The position numbers and the translations under genes are program-made. Of a stretch of DNA of 32,320 bases, positions 7,463 to 32,214 are shown piece by piece. Under the pieces are notes generated by a model that was not told the DNA's origin, made no database searches, and saw nothing but the letters and a program-made list of their open reading frames with translations. The number at the start of each line of letters is the position of its first letter. The first letter of the stretch is position 1. Source of the DNA: an uncultured Hyphomicrobiales bacterium (lineage in GTDB: Bacteria > Pseudomonadota > Alphaproteobacteria > Rhizobiales > Beijerinckiaceae); contig CAINNX010000077.1 in assembly GCA_903851305.1 (NCBI GenBank), positions 1 to 32,320 on the forward strand, given 5' to 3'.

Positions 7463-7501
7463 AAAGCTGCAAGAGGATAATTGTTGCGGCGTCTCTCCGC
7501 T

Positions 7502-7594
7502 CGTCATTGCGAGCAAAGCGAAGCAATCCAGCAGCGTCACCTGTCGACTTCACGCTATGGATTGCCGCGTCGCCTTCGGCTCCTCTCAATGACG
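7502..7594. repeat. REP-like palindromic element, copy 2
   Basis: Starts GTCATTGCGAGCAAAGCGAA and ends GGCTCCTCTCAATGAC, with AGCAATCCA and TGGATTGCC as inner arms. Its left arm resembles the right arm of the element at 853-930 and vice versa, so the two copies are in opposite orientation. Like the first copy it lies between convergent genes (recR and rmuC). Confidence 0.75.
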
Positions 7595-7601
7595 GGGTGA
7601 A

Positions 7602-13623: not shown

Positions 13624-14049
13624 TCACCCGTGGCGGATTTTTTCCATCAAGGCGGGGTCGTCAGCGATCAATTTCATCAACAGGGCGGTGGGCCAGCTCG
13701 GCAGGGCCTCGCCCCGCTCATATTTGGAGAAGGAATTGGGCGAGCCGGTGAGCAGCTGGCTCGCTTCTTTCTGGGTGAGCCGGGTTTTGCGGCGCAAGTC
13801 TTTGGCGAGCGCGCGTATGTTGGCGGCATATTCGGTTTTGAGTTCGGCGAAGGCTTTCTCGAAGCCGTCATGATCATCACCCATGATGACGCCATCGTTG
13901 CCGTCGTCTGGGAAAAATCCAGTGGCTTCGAATTCCTTCTTCAGGCCCATATATTCAACGGTTTCCATCCGGCGGCCGCGGGTGAGAAGTGCGCCTGTTT
14001 CGGGATGAATCATGGTCTTGCCACATGGAAATTGAACGTCATCTCGCAT
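13624..14049 (-). CDS. mqsA: MqsA-family antitoxin
   Basis: The C-terminal half has the MqsA helix-turn-helix LTQKEASQLLTGSPNSFSKY followed by ERGEALPSWPTALLMKL and DDPALMEKIR, very close to E. coli MqsA. The N-terminal half (MIHPETGALLTRGRRMETVE and GLKKEFEATGFFPDD) resembles the shorter alphaproteobacterial MqsA type, but the cysteine expected before PETG is His, and the only cysteine is residue 9. Zinc binding as in E. coli is therefore doubtful. The ATG at 14049 follows AGAGGA and lies 3 bases after the restored stop of mqsR, the toxin-first order known for mqsRA. The gene is intact while its toxin is broken. Confidence 0.87.
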   Translation of the reverse strand: MRDDVQFPCGKTMIHPETGALLTRGRRMETVEYMGLKKEFEATGFFPDDGNDGVIMGDDHDGFEKAFAELKTEYAANIRALAKDLRRKTRLTQKEASQLLTGSPNSFSKYERGEALPSWPTALLMKLIADDPALMEKIRHG

Positions 14050-15221: not shown

Positions 15222-16088
15222 TTACCTCGTGATCAGCGTGCCTGCGCCACCATCGGTGAGCAGTTCCACAAGCACCGCATGCGGTGTCTGGCCATCCAGG
15301 ATCACAACACCTTCAACGCCTTGCTCAAGCGCGTAAATGCAGGTTTCGACCTTGGGGATCATGCCGCCTGTGATGGTGCCATCGGCAATGAGTCTGCGGA
15401 TGTCATCAATCTTCAATTCCTTGATCAGCTGCTTGTTCTTGTCGAGCACGCCAGGCACATCGGTCAGGAAGAGAAGACGCTTGGCACCCAGTGCGCCAGC
15501 AATGGCGCCGGCGAATGTGTCGGCATTGACGTTATACGTCTCGCCGTCTGCGCCCATGGCAACAGGTGCAAGAACGGGTATCAATTCGCGGCCGAGCACC
15601 TGGTCGAGCACTGTTGTATCAACCTTGTCGGGCTCGCCGACAAAGCCAAGATCAACATCGCTATCGGTCACTTTGCGCGCAGTGACCATATTGCCGTCTT
15701 TGCCGCATAGGCCAATCGCGCGGCCACCTTCGGCATTGATGTAGCCGACGAGGTTTTTGTTGATGGAGCCAGCCAGCACCATTTCAACAATCTCAACCGT
15801 AGCGCGATCGGTGATGCGCAGGCCCGAGGCGAATTCTGATTTGATGCCGAGTTTCTTCAGCATGGCGCCGATCTGCGGGCCACCGCCGTGGACCACGACC
15901 GGGTTCACGCCTGACTGCTCAAGCAGGACCATATCTTTGGCAAAGCGGCGGGCGACTGCCTCGTCGCCCATGGCGTGCCCGCCGTATTTCACGACAATGA
16001 TGGATTCGTCATAGCGCAGCATGTGCGGCAGAGCCTGCATGAGGATTTCGGCCTGCTCCTGCGGGCTGCCTTTTAGCATGTTGGTCAT
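15222..16088 (-). CDS. argB: acetylglutamate kinase
   Basis: Phosphorylates N-acetylglutamate in arginine synthesis. The 288-residue protein shows the amino acid kinase signatures [11 protein letters not shown] near residue 33 and [14 protein letters not shown] near residue 60. The N-acetylglutamate site [25 protein letters not shown] follows in two parts, and the nucleotide-binding ends are [13 protein letters not shown] and [14 protein letters not shown]. Start at the ATG at 16088. engB lies upstream on the same strand, with a toxin-antitoxin locus inserted between them in the opposite direction. Confidence 0.96.
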
Positions 16089-16169
16089 GTGTGATCCTTA
16101 TATGATCTCTCTTGGCGCGCCCCTGTTTAGCCCGTCCTCATGGCAGCCTCAAGACGGGCGCCATTGCCA

Positions 16170-16193
16170 AATTGCACCTCATGCTGTGCAATT
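16170..16193. promoter_or_regulatory. 24-base perfect dyad between argB and the HigBA-type locus
   Basis: AATTGCAC and GTGCAATT form perfect eight-base inverted arms around CTCATGCT. The site lies in the divergent region between argB and the third toxin-antitoxin locus, about 80 bases before argB. No T run follows on either strand, so it looks more like a protein-binding site than a terminator. Which gene it controls cannot be told. Confidence 0.45.
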
Positions 16194-16219
16194 AGCTTCT
16201 TTTCAGAACTCTCTTGTTT

Positions 16220-16241
16220 TATTCCTTTTATGGAATATAAT
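16220..16241 (+). promoter_or_regulatory. probable promoter and operator of the HigBA-type locus
   Basis: TATAAT at 16236-16241 with TTGTTT 16 bases upstream forms a plausible promoter. TATTCC (16220-16225) and GGAATA (16232-16237) are inverted arms that overlap the -10 box, as expected for antitoxin autoregulation. Transcription from here would begin near 16248, after the ATG at 16243, which favours the TTG at 16252 as toxin start. Confidence 0.45.
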
Positions 16242-16242
16242 C

Positions 16243-16603
16243 ATGCTATGGTTGGTCGAGGTTACCGACGAGTTTTCGGCTTGGTTTATAGAGCTTCGTG
16301 CTCCGATTCAGGACGAAGTTGATCGCATTGTGGGTTTGCTGGAGGTGAAGGGGCCGCAATTGCCGTTTCCCTTCTCATCTGGCTTGGTCGGATCGCGCCA
16401 TGGGCATATGCGCGAATTGCGCGTGCAATCTGGCGGTGAGCCCTATCGGGTTTTTTTATGCGTTTGACCCACGCCGGACTGCAATTTTGTTGATCGGCGG
16501 ATGCAAGACGGGGGACGACCGATTTTACGAGCGGATGATCCCGCTGGCCGATGAGCTCTATGAAGTTTACCTCGCAGAATTGCGCAAGGAAGGATTGTTG
16601 TGA
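16243..16603 (+). pseudogene. HigB-type toxin (PF05973/Gp49-like), frameshifted in a T run
   Basis: The frame from 16243 reads MLWLVEVTDEFSAWF, then VDRIVGLLEVKGPQLPFPFS and SRHGHMRELRVQSGGEPYRV, after which it runs into a stop. Removing one T from the seven-T run at 16451-16457 gives RVFYAFDPRRTAILLIGG and continues through KTGDDRFYERMIPLADELYE to 16603, the normal end of this ribosome-dependent RNase family. The lesion is thus one inserted base in a homopolymer. It may be a null mutation, a slippage-prone switch or a sequencing artefact. The toxin stop overlaps the antitoxin ATG in TGATG. The start may be the TTG at 16252 (MVEVTDEF). Confidence 0.82.
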
Positions 16604-16926
16604 TGGCAGGACACCGCTCATTTCAGGAATTGCGCAAGGCGATCCCGCCAGAACGCAAGGAGCGCAATCGGCGAGAGACAAGGTCGCTTTTAAAAGCACT
16701 GGCGCTTTTCGAGTTGCGGCAGGCGCGTGGCAAATCACAAGACGAAATTGCGAGTGAATTGAGTGTTAAGCAGCCAGCGGTCGCCAAGATGGAACGACGC
16801 GACGATATTTATGTGAGCAATTTGCGCCGCTATGTCGAAGCCTTGGGCGGGCGGCTCGAAATCACGGCTCATTTCCCAGATCGCGTCGTGCCCATTGCGC
16901 TGGGGTCTTCTGATCCGGCTGAATGA
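16603..16926 (+). CDS. HigA-type Xre antitoxin
   Basis: A 107-residue protein with the helix-turn-helix ELRQARGKSQDEIASELSVK then QPAVAKMERRDDIYVSNLRR, and the typical ending YVEALGGRLEITAHFPD. This form pairs with Gp49-like HigB toxins. The ATG at 16603 shares a base with the restored toxin stop, so the two were translated as a coupled pair. The gene itself is undamaged. It ends 2 bases from the convergent engB stop, showing that the locus is tightly packed into a core gene cluster. Confidence 0.88.
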   Translation: MAGHRSFQELRKAIPPERKERNRRETRSLLKALALFELRQARGKSQDEIASELSVKQPAVAKMERRDDIYVSNLRRYVEALGGRLEITAHFPDRVVPIALGSSDPAE

Positions 16927-22121: not shown

Positions 22122-23089
22122 TGTCCACTCTCGTTCTTGCCGTGCCCTCGAAAGGCCGGTTGCAAGAAAATGCCAATGCCTTCTTCGCGCGTGCGGGGCT
22201 TGAAGTCGTGCGGGGCCGCGGGCTTCGCGATTATCGCGGCACGCTGGCTGGCATTGAAGGCGTCGAAATCGCCTTTCTGTCGGCGTCTGAAATCGTCAGC
22301 CAACTGGCAGCTGGCACAGCGCACATGGGTGTGACGGGTGAAGATCTCGTGCGCGAGACTTTGCCGGATGCTGATGCCAAGGTTGAATTGCTCACCCCCT
22401 TAGGGTTTGGTCAGGCCAATGTTGTTGTGGCTGTGCCGCAGGCCTGGATTGACGTGCGCAATATGGCCGATCTTGAAGATGTGGCCGCTGCCTATCGCTC
22501 GCGGCGTGGCGAGCGTATGCGGGTGGCAACCAAATATATCAATCTGACACGCAGCTATTTTGCCGAACAGGGCGTCACGGATTACCGCATTGTGGAAAGT
22601 CTGGGTGCGACTGAGGGCGCGCCGGCAGCTGGCCAAGCTGAGCTGATTGTCGACATCACCACCACGGGCGCCACGCTTGTCGCCAATGCGCTGAAGGTGC
22701 TGGATGACGGCGTCATGCTGCGCTCGGAGGCTAATCTTGTGGCCTCGCTGACAGCTGACTGGAATGAGCGCACACGCAATCTGGCGCGTATGATTCTGGG
22801 TCGCATTGCGGCTGAAGAAGAAGCACGCACAACGCGTGAACTGCGCACATTGGTGGAAGGTGATCGCGCCAAGCTCGTAGCAGACGCACAAAAGTTGTTT
22901 GATGTGCGCACACCGCTTGGCATTGCCAAGGATGGTCCGCTGACTTTGATTGCGCCCAAGAAAAAAGTCGCGGATCTGTCGGATTGGCTGATCTTGCGTG
23001 GCGCTGATCATGTGACGGTGGCGCAGATGGATTATATTTTCTCCTCGCGCAATCCGCTGTTTGAAAAGCTGTCCGCGCGCCTGGGGTGA
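22121..23089 (+). CDS. hisG: ATP phosphoribosyltransferase catalytic subunit
   Basis: Catalyses the first step of histidine synthesis from ATP and PRPP. It begins [20 protein letters not shown], shows [20 protein letters not shown] and [11 protein letters not shown], then [20 protein letters not shown], and the PRPP-loop region [15 protein letters not shown]. At 322 residues it is longer than the short HisG of about 210-230 residues that usually accompanies HisZ, carrying about 100 extra C-terminal residues, as in other alphaproteobacteria. The ATG at 22121 shares a base with the hisZ stop, so the two subunits are coupled. Confidence 0.95.
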
Positions 23090-23144
23090 GCTGACAATCG
23101 TCCTTGCGCGCACTGTGCAGCAATCCAAAGGGCCGACACAGATC

Positions 23145-23873
23145 ATGATCTTGCGCCTTTTGCCCGTCCTGCTTCTGGCTGTCTGTGCGATGACGCTCTG
23201 GTTGAGCGGTGTCGTCCAGCACGTCTCGCTGGCGCGCCTCGTTGAGGGGCGTGATCTGTTGCAGGCGCAAATTTCAGCGCATCCGTTTTTGTCGTTGAGT
23301 GCCTTTTATCTTGCCTATGTGGCGATGGCGGCAATGGCTTTTCCGGTGTCGCCTTTACTCAGCTTGTCGGCGGGTTTTCTGTTTGGGCCGCTGACGGGTG
23401 CGCTTGTGTCTATTATGGGCGCTACCAGCGGTGGGGCCATTTTGTTTCTGGCGGCCCGCACGGGCTTGTCGGCGTTTTTTCACGCGCGCTTGCGCAGTTT
23501 TGCAACAGGCTTTCGAGAAGACGCGGCCGCCTACATGCTGTTCTTGCGGGTGGCGATTATCTTTCCCTCGTGGTTTGTGAATATCGGCACAGGGCTGATC
23601 GGCATTTCGCTCAAAACCTTTCTCTGGACCACAGCTCTGGGCATTGCGCCTGTGACGCTGGCTTTTGCTTTTGCAGGCTCAGGACTTGAGCGCGTTCTGT
23701 CCGCCGAGCTTGCGGCTTGGCGCGTGTGCAGCGCACAAAGTGCTAGCCCATGCGCCTTTGAGGTGCATCCTTTGGCGCTCCTGCAACCTGAGCTCATCAT
23801 GGCCATTCTGGTGCTGGCCGCCCTTGCCTTGGTTTCGGTGCTGATGCGTCGGCGTTGGCGTGGTGTCAGGTGA
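23145..23873 (+). CDS. TVP38/TMEM64 (VTT domain) membrane protein
   Basis: A 242-residue integral membrane protein of the DedA-like VTT superfamily. It starts with a signal-anchor-like segment (MILRLLPVLLLAVCAMTLWL), then has membrane segments with the VTT hallmarks FPVSPLLSLSAGFLFGPLTG, GATSGGAILFLAARTG, and FLRVAIIFPSWFVNIGTGLI. A final segment near LIMAILVLAALALVSVLM ends in a basic tail. The family is linked to lipid scrambling or membrane homeostasis, but the role here is unknown. It lies 55 bases after hisG on the same strand and may be co-transcribed. Confidence 0.85.
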   Translation: MILRLLPVLLLAVCAMTLWLSGVVQHVSLARLVEGRDLLQAQISAHPFLSLSAFYLAYVAMAAMAFPVSPLLSLSAGFLFGPLTGALVSIMGATSGGAILFLAARTGLSAFFHARLRSFATGFREDAAAYMLFLRVAIIFPSWFVNIGTGLIGISLKTFLWTTALGIAPVTLAFAFAGSGLERVLSAELAAWRVCSAQSASPCAFEVHPLALLQPELIMAILVLAALALVSVLMRRRWRGVR

Positions 23874-23989: not shown

Positions 23990-25480
23990 ATGCGTGATGA
24001 GCGACGAAATCCCTTGGCCGAGAGGCTTGAAGCACCGCTGCGGCCGAGACTTGGTCTGGCAGGCAGCGTGCTGTTGCTCGTCATAGGCTTTGTCATGCTG
24101 GCGGAAATCGCCGTTTATGTGCCAGCCATTGCGCTTTATCGCGAGAATTGGTTGCGCGACCGCCTGAGCGCGGCCTCGACCGCCGTTCTCTTGCTGGATG
24201 CCACGGCCACACAAGTGCCAGATCGTCTGGTTGAGGATGCATTGGAAGCCGTGCGTGCGCGCACCATTGTGCTCAAAATGCAAGACAGCCGTCGCCTGTT
24301 GGCATCAGGTACGCCGCCGCAACGCATTGATGTGCGGTATGATATGCGCAGCGCGGGTTTCTTCGAATCCGTCTCTGCCGCCTTTGGCACATTGACAACG
24401 CGGCGCAATCGTACGCTGGCTGTGATTGGTCCAGCACCTTTGGGTGGTGAATATATTGAAATCACCATGGCCGAGGCACCTTTGCGCAAAGCCATGCTGA
24501 TCCATTCGCGCAATCTTTTGGCGCTGTCATTGGTTATTTCGCTGATTGTGGCGAGCCTTGCAGCCTTGTCGATCAATTCGCTGGTGCTGCGCCCGGTGCG
24601 GCGTTTGACATCGAGCATTATCTCCTTTGGTGCAGCACCCGAGGATGCTTCGCGGATTATCAGGCCTTCGGGCATGGGCCATGAGTTGGGTCGCGCCGAA
24701 GATGCGCTCGCAGATATGCAGCGCGCATTGTTGCGCGAATTGGCCGAGAAAAAGAATCTCGCAGCGCTGGGACTCGCTGTGGCCAAAGTCAGCCATGATC
24801 TGCGCAATATGTTGGCGTCGGCGCAATTATTGTCGGACCGATTTGTCGAATCCTAGGATCCGCTGGCCAAGCGCCTGGCACCCAAACTGATCGCCACACT
24901 CGATCGCGCCATTGCATTTTGCCAGTCGACGCTCACCTATGGTCGCGCTGTGGAGCGCGCACCGGCCATCCGCCCCATGGGCCTGCGCGGCGTCATCCGC
25001 GAAGCTGCCGAGGTCTTGATGCCAGACGGCACGACGACTGGCTGCATCACCATTCGCAATGAAGTGCCCAAGGGTTTTCAGATCCAGGCTGATCCAGAGC
25101 ATATGTTTCGCGTTTTTCTAAACCTGCTGCGTAATGCCAATGAGGCATTGCAGACAGCGGGCCCACAGCCCGGCCGTGCGGCCGAGATCATCATCACAGC
25201 GACAAGCCGCAATGGCATGGTGCTGGTGGATGTGGCCGATACGGGCCCTGGCGTGCCCCCCAACGCACAAAGGCGATTGTTCGAGCCCTTCAAGGCCTCC
25301 TCGCGCCCCGGCGGAACAGGGCTTGGACTGGCCATTGCAGCCGATCTTGTGCGCGCTCATGGCGGGACGATCACTTTGCTGCCTTCCGACCCGGGGTTGG
25401 GCGCCACATTCCGTATTACGCTCCCGGCTGCCGAGCCGCTCGCAGATGCATCTGTAGAGCCAGTTTCCCCAGCAGCTTGA
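23990..25480 (+). pseudogene. sensor histidine kinase interrupted by an in-frame TAG
   Basis: Two membrane segments (near residues 20-43 and 176-200) flank a periplasmic sensor region. A HAMP-like linker and the phosphoacceptor box VAKVSHDLRNMLASAQLLSD (His near residue 268) follow. Codon 289 is TAG (24854-24856), but the same frame continues with DPLAKRLAPKLIATLDRAIA, the N box FLNLLRNANEAL, DTGPGVPPNAQRRLFEPF and GGTGLGLAIAADLVRAHGG, ending at 25480. All catalytic parts are thus present in one frame, and only the amber codon (from TCG or CAG by one change) separates the two. No response regulator is adjacent. It is either a recent null or, less likely, read through. Confidence 0.85.
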
Positions 25481-25581: not shown

Positions 25582-25658
25582 GCGCCCGTAGCTCAGCTGG
25601 ATAGAGCATCAGACTACGAATCTGAGGGTCAGAGGTTCGAATCCTTTCGGGCGCGCCA
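25582..25658 (+). tRNA. tRNA-Arg (anticodon ACG)
   Basis: The seven-base acceptor stem GCGCCCG pairs with CGGGCGC, the D arm is GCTCAGCTGGATAGAGC, the anticodon stem TCAGA/TCTGA encloses CTACGAA with ACG at 25616-25618, and the T arm is AGAGGTTCGAATCCTTT. The terminal CCA is encoded. A34 should be edited to inosine by TadA. It stands alone and marks the change from core to accessory genes. Confidence 0.96.
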
Positions 25659-26678: not shown

Positions 26679-27238
26679 TTATTCAAAATAGTCTGGAAGA
26701 TCGGCCAATCGCGGAAGGGCGCGATCTTTCTCTGAAACGGTCAGTTCTGAAGCAGGAAACGGCCAAGCAATGCCCAGATCAGGATCGTTGAATGCCACGC
26801 CGTGTTCATGCGTGGGGGCATAATTTGCTGTGACTTTATAAAGCACTTCGGTGTCGGGCTCCAATGTACAAAAGCTATGTGCAAATCCAGCTGGTAAAAG
26901 GAGCTGGCGCCAGTTCTCGGCGGATAGTTCTATGGCGACATGTTGACCATATGTGCTTGAGCTTTTGCGCAGATCAACGGCAACGTCGAGAATGCGTCCG
27001 CGGGTCACTCTGACAAGTTTGGTTTGCGCGAACGGGGGGGGCTTTGAAAATGCAAGCCCCGAAGCGTGCCCGCTTTTGTTGATAGGGAATGATTGTCTTG
27101 AACAAATTCAAGATTGATTCCAGCAACATCTAGGCGGGCCTGGCTCCATACTTCCGAGAAAAAACCACGCTCATCATAGAAGCGCTGGCTTTGAATAATT
27201 TTAACAGCTTCGATGGCGGCCGATTCAACGAAAGACAC
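26679..27238 (-). pseudogene. rfbC: dTDP-4-dehydrorhamnose 3,5-epimerase, frameshifted at a C8 run
   Basis: The N-terminal part reads KIIQSQRFYDERGFFSEVW, FVQDNHSLS and TLRGLHFQSPP, then leaves frame at a run of eight C on the coding strand (27034-27041) and stops near 27005. The other frame continues FAQTKLVRVTRGRILDVAVD, AENWRQLLLPAGFAHSF and EVLYKVTANYAP, which complete a normal epimerase with its catalytic His and Tyr. A run of six or nine C would restore the protein. I place the start at GTG 27238 (VSFVESAAIEAVK), preceded by GAGG; the ATG at 27310 is an alternative. Mononucleotide tracts in polysaccharide genes are classic phase-variation sites, so this could be a switched-off state rather than decay. 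Confidence 0.85.
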
Positions 27239-27595
27239 ATGCGCCTCATTTCTAATCTTATGTAAGGCAGCAGCTTTAACCCATTCAGCTTGGGGCGCTT
27301 GCTCTGCCATCACGCTTCTTAACCGAGAGAAGATGGCTTGTATGCCTGACTTTCCGCAGGTCTGGCTTGGCGGCAAATGCTTACAAGCTCTTGTTTGTTG
27401 AAGGGCGATTAAAGCCAAGTTATGGCTAGAAGGCCGCACTGGTTAGGCACCCACCTTGTCGTCAGACCGTCAGCTCAAAATTTGGCCTGTTATAATGACA
27501 CAAGTTGCGATGCATTATGAAGAAAATTTTCAGTTCGACAGGGCCTCCCACTTGACGCTGCCGCTATTTACGCCCCCCCATACTTACCGAGGGAT
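27239..27595. other. divergent intergenic region between rfbC and tctB
   Basis: No convincing gene. An open minus-strand frame runs from rfbC up to 27439 but the extra residues resemble nothing known to me. A plus-strand TATAAT at 27491-27496 could serve tctB, but no good -35 box lies 17 bases upstream. Confidence 0.35.
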
Positions 27596-30772: not shown

Positions 30773-32214
30773 TTAAAAACCGAGGATGACCAAGCGTATG
30801 GCTGGCCGATTGATCTTGCCGCCCAAATTAATTGGAACCTCATTCATGTAATGAAATTTAATCGAATTAACTTGCGGTAGCGTTTCACGAATACTTGATT
30901 CTTCTGATAAGGTGAGCGGGCTCCGCCGTTCAATGACAGCATGCAAAATATTTTCATTGTTTGAAGCAGGTGCCGTAAACAGGCAAAAGCGAGCGCCGGT
31001 TTGCAATGACAAGCTTTCTTCGATCCATATAGTCGATAGTTTGATTCCACCAATATTAAGCGCGTCGCCTAGTCGTCCTGTGAGTTTGAGCAGGCCTTTG
31101 GGTGAAATAATTCCCATGTCGCCTGTGTAGAAAAACCCTTCACGGAATACGGTTTGGCTTGTTGTGATGTCACCTTCATATTCGCGCGCATCTAGTCGAT
31201 GAAGTTGAACGCGCAGGGCGCCTTCTTGGCCAGCTGGTAATATATTATCTTGTGCATCTACAATTTGAATTTTTCTGCCAGGTAGAACGCGACTCCACTC
31301 CAGATCCTCTTGGGTTCGAATATCTGTGTAGGTTATGACCGTCGAAAGCTCGGTTGCTCCAATTGAGTTGACGACATTTGGGGTGAGCTTTTCGAGCAGG
31401 CTCATCACTTGATTGAATGGCACCTGGCCGCCACCAAGCAAGAGCGTGAGATCATGGCGAGGCTTGTCTTCAATCTTGCTGTCCATGATATTTTTAACAT
31501 GTTCTGGCCGCAAGCTCGTCAACGTCACATCTGGCCGCAGCGCGCTCATAATGGCGTTTGCGCTTTGGTCAAGAATTATTGTGCATCCATCATGAAAAAC
31601 AGATATGCTCCATTTGTAAGCTAAGGATCCGAATATGGGATAGTTGTTGAGTCCGACCCGAAGCTTTTGGCTTCTGGATACAGATTTACAAATTGATGCA
31701 TATTCAATTTCATTCGCGGCCTTAAAGCGGATCATTTTAGGTGTGCCTGTCGAACCAGACGACAGACAGAAGTGATCACCTGCAGGCATCTTGGGCAGAT
31801 CAAAATTGGTCTGTTCCAGTATGGGTGCAGAGTAGATCGCCGTCGGGATCATGACGCGGCGGATGTGTGTGGGCAGATGCTGGCTGGCAATGCGCGCATA
31901 ATCAGCTTGCGGCAGCAACAATGCTGTTACGCCCTTTAATGTTTCTAAAGTTGCCAGGTCACCACATGGCACAGTGACCACACTGATGCCCAAGCTGCGG
32001 GCTGCGAGTGAAATGACCCATTGGTCAAGAATGTCACGAGCCCAGAGAGCGCAGCCCGCGTTTGGTGGCAGGTTCTGCGTTTCCAGAAAGCGGCGGGTCG
32101 ATTGGATGAGCTGAAAGAAGACGCGATAGCTAACGGGTGTCCCCAGGCTTCAATCGCTGTGGCATTGGGCGTTTGCTTGGCCCAGTGTCTGATACGCTTG
32201 TGGCCAGCCCCCAC
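30773..32214 (-). pseudogene. AMP-binding acyl/aryl ligase, frameshifted near the 5' end
   Basis: About 480 residues of an ANL-superfamily adenylating enzyme. The N-terminus RHWAKQTPNATAIEAWGHPL ends in a frameshift at about 32131-32133; one frame away it resumes as YRVFFQLIQSTRRFLETQNL and runs to 30773. Motifs in order are FCLSSGSTGTPKMIRF (A3, phosphate loop), NSIGATELSTVITY (A5), FFYTGDMGI (A7), LTGRLGDALNIGGIKLS (A8) and GGKINR (A10, with the catalytic Lys). Everything after residue 30 is open, so a single missing base is the only visible defect. Start is GTG at 32214. Substrate unknown; the neighbouring tctC hints at an imported carboxylate. Confidence 0.8.

Follow-up and report, generated by a model that had tools for sequence, protein, structure and literature searches.

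An in-frame amber codon in the DHp turn of a membrane sensor kinase gene from an uncultured Hyphomicrobiales bacterium, most likely an ordinary broken gene copy

Described kinases and the layout of the interrupted gene

Membrane sensor kinases of the HisKA type contain a DHp hairpin with the H-box and a HATPase_c domain. The DHp and ATPase domains of EnvZ function as separate pieces, and nonsense-mutated alleles of two-component kinases are known as pseudogenes, in which a single in-frame stop lies in an otherwise intact gene. Histidine kinases composed of two polypeptides are also described, for CheA3/CheA4 of Rhodobacter sphaeroides and Hik36/Hik43 of Synechocystis (PMC3591291, PMC7656254). 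In the CheA3/CheA4 pair, CheA4 carries the domains for dimerisation and catalysis, and the P1 domain, which is phosphorylated, is set apart from them (PMC3591291, PMC7656254). The first-pass annotation of the present locus had regarded a split His-box and ATPase pair as unusual, which is only partly right given such descriptions (PMC3591291, PMC7656254); since split kinases are already known, its notion of a split would vary an established idea, moved to a new site within the fold. Among the literature matches listed, none describes a HisKA hairpin made of two chains or placed under amber control, which is no proof of absence.

The kinase gene analyzed here lies in a stretch of 32,320 nucleotides (the window) from a 2.76-Mb draft genome in 186 contigs (G000). 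The draft is probably a MAG, because its closest named relatives are Beijerinckiaceae MAGs. The ATG at 23990 opens a gene of 496 codons (23990-25480) in which codon 289 is a TAG, and reading past it gives a 496-residue membrane histidine kinase of the HisKA type ending at the TGA at 25478-25480 (Table 1). The first-pass claim that a single amber codon divides a histidine kinase, with the same frame on both sides, was confirmed. The break was also said to fall between the phosphoacceptor His and the ATPase domain with the motifs kept, and indeed His269 precedes the stop and HATPase_c follows it. The 'VSHDLRN' segment at residue 269 is presumably the H-box. The HisKA profile match (24770-24946) runs across the stop and is weak (E about 0.002-0.0025, below the Pfam cut-off), and none of the 25 NCBIfam models listed reaches its cut-off on this kinase. 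Read through, which is the ancestral form, the gene has the layout of a HisKA kinase, consisting of DHp helix 1 with the His, DHp helix 2 and HATPase_c. In the window allele as encoded, the TAG separates the His and the ATPase domain, which are not on one polypeptide.

The position of the stop in the fold was taken from a structure model of L043, the intact orthologue of the nearest species, which has the same length and numbering (mean pLDDT 67). The sensor side of the model contains helices 23-71 and 162-214 with a mixed alpha/beta domain in between, and the DHp part contains helices 256-286 and 291-320, where the pLDDT is only about 43-57. Codon 289 thus falls in the turn of the hairpin. 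With L043 as the query, the nearest solved cytoplasmic core is that of ZraS (9jfj), which is the best match both by sequence (E 3.1e-20) and by fold. The window kinase differs from other HisKA-type kinases in having its own sensor part and a HisKA match below the Pfam cut-off. It also differs from CheA3/CheA4, because a single HisKA hairpin would be cut in its turn and there is no sign of a second start.

Table 1. Features of the kinase locus and of the other stop-cut genes in the same genome
Feature	Position	Strand	Basis or remark
Neighbouring gene upstream: DedA-like membrane protein with VTT domain (open frame)	23061..23873	+	PF09335, E 2.3e-15
First open frame: membrane sensor, linker and DHp helix 1 with H-box	23990..24856	+	288 codons and TAG
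Presumed phosphoacceptor His269 codon	24794..24796	+	Sequence; H269 invariant in a 10-sequence alignment of relatives
In-frame TAG, codon 289, DHp inter-helix turn	24854..24856	+	Sequence; model of intact relative
Post-stop frame: DHp helix 2 and ATPase domain	24857..25480	+	207 codons and TGA
In-frame GTG, codon 321, just past DHp helix 2 (291-320 in model)	24950..24952	+	Judged an ordinary Val codon
HATPase_c domain	25091..25432	+	Profile match, E 1.7e-23 (2.1e-23 for the part after the stop, 1.2e-22 for the read-through protein)
Downstream neighbour, ordinary tRNA-Arg (ACG)	25582..25658	+	tRNA match
Cache-HisKA-HATPase_c-receiver (REC) kinase, in-frame TAG in DHp turn	L210:1669-1671 = G000:C12:21669	+	HisKA match; G019 relative
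Hsp70-like gene, in-frame TAG, codon 81	L191:6673-6675, G000:C91	-	Intact in G019, G012
OpgC gene, in-frame TAG	L175:1842-1844	-	One Pfam domain across the stop
NAD-dependent epimerase, in-frame TAA	L189:14424-14426	+	One Pfam domain across the stop

Elsewhere in the window, rfbC (dTDP-4-dehydrorhamnose 3,5-epimerase; 26679-27439, minus strand) carries a frameshift around 27008, with parts of the Pfam profile in different frames. The first ORF of an AMP-binding enzyme (30773-32214, minus strand) covers only profile positions 167-374 of 384, and its N-terminal part may be in another frame. Syntenic pieces from three relatives contain nothing that matches the segment 16158-16941 at the nucleotide level; this segment overlaps a Gp49-like ORF (16021-16464, profile positions 2-58 of 90) and holds a helix-turn-helix ORF (16600-16926), and the two ORFs are possibly a toxin-antitoxin pair. 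An MqsA-like antitoxin gene (13624-14049, minus strand, PF15731) has a high dN/dS of 0.21 against the nearest species (G019) and 0.24 against G032. Two short stretches, 7501-7597 and 850-935, match non-syntenic places in the relatives' pieces and are probably an interspersed repeat.

Orthologues and constraint on both parts of the gene

A match with E 1e-57 or better, taken as an orthologue, was found in 51 of the 60 relatives, and 9 of the 60 have none. The kinase of the nearest species, G019, is 93% identical and uninterrupted. The frame after the stop aligns to intact orthologues up to, or nearly up to, its end (93% for G019, 86% for G032 and 85% for G027), which is more than chance would give. 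The column of the TAG was compared in 40 rows, covering part of the orthologues: the window's own row, 33 distinct rows of relatives and 6 duplicates. None of the 33 distinct rows has a stop in this column, where the residue is S in 22, P in 6, T in 2, Q in 2 and E in 1. The first-pass annotation had proposed a comparison with close strains; in these rows of relatives the stop is shared by none, a stop common to the relatives was rejected, and no split is conserved among them. The only stops in the L017 and L034 rows are C-terminal, at query positions 489 and 493. Outside the 33 rows, the G037 match contains one TGA somewhere in its length, the G020 copy is broken across two contigs, and the G017 match stops short of the TAG column.

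In G018 and G021, both more than 90% complete, hisG is present, and the VTT gene and the kinase are missing beside it. This indicates that the kinase is conserved but dispensable in the genus. Of the 18 stretches in a viral collection that fit a pattern, none codes for a relative.

Constraint was compared between the two parts of the gene. Against G019, dN/dS is 0.036 before the stop and 0.081 after it, and intact gene pairs show a similar step of 1.7- to 2.8-fold (for example 0.024 and 0.067 for G032-L051). The whole-gene value of 0.054 falls between the extremes that the remaining window genes show against G019, 0 and 0.21. When changes were polarised with three outgroups, by simple counts and no codon model, synonymous codons of the 3' part numbered 26 on the G000 branch and 24 on the G019 branch, and amino-acid-changing codons numbered 7 and 4, respectively (Fisher P 0.53). 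A 3' part free over the whole G000 branch should have collected about 71 amino-acid changes, compared with the 7 observed, and the counts reject, at the 5% level, a period of freedom that takes up 14% or more of this branch. Thus, neither dN/dS nor the polarised counts showed relaxed constraint after the stop. Because the 3' part is still constrained, the stop is young, or it is a base error or a minor allele, or the second half is still made; the absence of relaxation would also fit a translated second half.

Use of TAG as a stop and other stop-cut genes

TAG works as a terminator in this genome. In the window, TAG closes pheA, folK and recR (assigned by eye), three genes whose orthologues terminate at the same place with TAG, TGA or TAA. 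In the first G000 sample, TAG terminates 24 of 282 predicted genes. The corresponding figures, counted on longer ORFs with another ORF cut-off, are 20 of 267 for G019 and 35 of 262 for G032. The RF-1 family has three matches in G000, the third of which is 142 residues long; we take the match with the SPF motif to be RF2, and the match with the PAT motif to be RF1, cut by a contig end. Among 40 tRNA matches in the draft (38 typed, and 2 at contig ends read by eye as GTC and GCC), none has the anticodon CUA (CTA), which was the outcome of the search for an amber suppressor tRNA proposed in the first pass. The draft has gaps, since tRNAs for Tyr, Ile, Ala-UGC and Gly-UCC were not seen either, and a suppressor tRNA could sit in such a gap. 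Recoding of TAG was rejected on the terminator use, the encoded RF1 and the lack of a CUA tRNA among the 40.

To find other genes cut by a stop, 74 pieces of G000 with 1,088,225 bases (39%) were scanned by codon usage. The thresholds were loosened twice, the second time slightly, after early versions had missed the window kinase. When stops were placed at random inside genes, the first loosened setting recovered 1406 of 1653 and the final one 1622 of 1977. The final scan gave 98 matches, 5 of which were kept as stop-cut genes (4 TAG and 1 TAA), confirmed by orthologues or, for OpgC and the epimerase, by one Pfam domain spanning the stop. The other matches were taken as gene boundaries, by a start codon close after the stop or by eye, and not one by one. 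Four unclear low-scoring matches were dropped (L213:10950 TGA, L267:2781 TGA, L232:18111 TAA and L232:19232 TAA), which would lower the TAG share if they were real. Random nonsense from the codon usage of G000 would be 48-50% TAG, 30-35% TAA and 16-21% TGA, so an excess of TAG among the internal stops, 4 of 5, was not significant (P 0.16-0.19) and was discarded. Five cut genes in 1.09 Mb could be given by random nonsense, and they point to a background of similar interruptions in this genome. A TAG in the Hsp70-like gene of G014 (L225) was rejected as a shared feature, because it lies at codon 44 and not 81.

As a control, 400 kb each of G032 and G019 were scanned at the first loosened setting, which already found all five G000 genes. 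These gave 35 and 33 matches, of which 8 and 15 were listed and judged by eye, and no gene cut in two was seen among the matches listed. The difference between 5 cut genes in 1.09 Mb and 0 in 0.8 Mb has a conditional P of 0.064, or 0.025 with the G000 rate given; it fits more decay or more base errors in a fragmented draft and is suggestive only. None of the 26 other window genes with a G019 orthologue has a stop in its body, and four window-gene rows have a stop only in an extension beyond their own start or end.

One of the five genes, on contig C12, is a second kinase with its TAG in the DHp turn; its best relative is an uninterrupted G019 gene of only 65% identity. With E up to 1, G000 has 23 HisKA matches (22 when the limit is 0.01). 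Two of the 23 are interrupted by a stop, in each case a TAG at the DHp turn; five relatives together have 99 matches at the 0.01 limit, none of them with an internal stop (Fisher P 0.034 for 2 of 23). The observed density predicts about 0.002 TAGs for the remaining 22 DHp turns, a post hoc figure. The window and C12 TAGs both lie within the 8-base palindrome TCCTAGGA, which occurs 4 times in 1.09 Mb of G000, and all four internal TAGs are followed by G, for which the chance is about 0.02 (post hoc). Because the figures for the DHp turn are post hoc and the context comes partly from a common S-x-D/E, they serve as a flag and not as proof. The repeated TAG at the DHp turn in two kinases of one genome is flagged as an unexplained coincidence that is not easily put down to chance.

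CTAG itself occurs 569 times in the 1.088 Mb of G000 and is less frequent in G019 (105 in 0.4 Mb) and G032 (151 in 0.4 Mb), as if the species of G000 avoided CTAG less strongly.

Origin and consequence of the stop

The stop is very probably a single young nonsense change, fixed or segregating, or a wrong base of the draft, in a conserved and dispensable membrane sensor kinase, and an ordinary broken gene copy is the most likely reading. The first-pass annotation had offered three possibilities, a newly dead gene, a gene split into two proteins and a gene read through, and the first of these is the best supported, by the intact orthologues, the constraint on both halves and the working TAG terminator. 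The relatives are intact and the disruption is private to G000 among the 33 distinct rows compared, and the only difference from known nonsense-mutated alleles is that a second kinase of G000 is cut at the same structural position. Should the base be real, translation would end after DHp helix 1, and the product would be a membrane sensor stub with the phosphoacceptor His and without DHp helix 2 and the ATPase domain. Such a stub, lacking both, would not autophosphorylate, so that the kinase has presumably lost its function, and the pathway would be lost in cells carrying the TAG allele.

Within the same explanation, it is possible, although short of probable, that the TAG is a consensus base error or a minority allele in the draft and that the organism's kinase is intact. 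The 186 contigs of an inferred MAG, the undiminished constraint on both halves of the kinase, the five stop-cut genes in 1.09 Mb, compared with no gene so judged in the 0.8 Mb scanned from two relatives, and the frameshifted rfbC in the window are all in line with this, whereas the absence of stops from the bodies of the 26 other window genes with a G019 orthologue speaks against it. A real young mutation gives the same picture, and the data do not separate the two. Amber readthrough, by a suppressor tRNA or leaky termination, would give enough full-length kinase and allow TAGs to be tolerated in loops. It could account for the four TAGs among five internal stops, two of them in DHp turns and all four followed by G (a post hoc pattern), and for the constraint on the post-stop frame in the window kinase and the Hsp70-like gene. 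However, the 40 tRNAs, the encoded RF1 and the ordinary terminator use of TAG lend it no support in this gapped draft, the share of TAG is as random nonsense would give, the three TAGs compared, those of the window kinase, the C12 kinase and the Hsp70-like gene, are absent from G019, and the Hsp70-like TAG of G014 is at another codon. Readthrough is thus unlikely, and probably does not occur here.

A functional kinase made of two proteins, in which a sensor and His stub is complemented in trans by a separately started ATPase fragment, is least probable, with a very small chance. The cut falls at the inter-helix turn, the GTG at 24950 follows DHp helix 2 directly, and CheA-type split kinases exist (PMC3591291, PMC7656254). 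The first-pass statement that a start is available near 24950 stood insofar as an in-frame GTG exists there, but nothing marks it as a start. The upstream pairing energy of -2.2 kcal/mol equals the median of 500 random sites, and a restart was rejected for want of a signal. This test is weak, as the start of the first frame, at 23990, has no signal either (0.4 kcal/mol). Codon 321 is GTG in 5 of the 5 relatives compared, which indicates an ordinary Val codon, and the stop is found in 0 of 33 relative rows. A restart at this codon would lose DHp helix 2, leaving the His helix without its partner. The split into two proteins therefore found no support, and a restart probably does not take place.

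Returning to the broken copy as the preferred reading, the repeated position in two kinases leaves a slight chance that the species tolerates or uses amber codons in the HisKA DHp turn, with the halves acting in trans or with low-level readthrough giving a little whole kinase. As it stands, the window kinase is one more interrupted gene, and draft genomes carry single-base stops in otherwise intact genes. A repeated amber codon at the DHp turn that proved genuine and selected would give, to our knowledge, the first known HisKA hairpin that functions as two chains or is amber-controlled.
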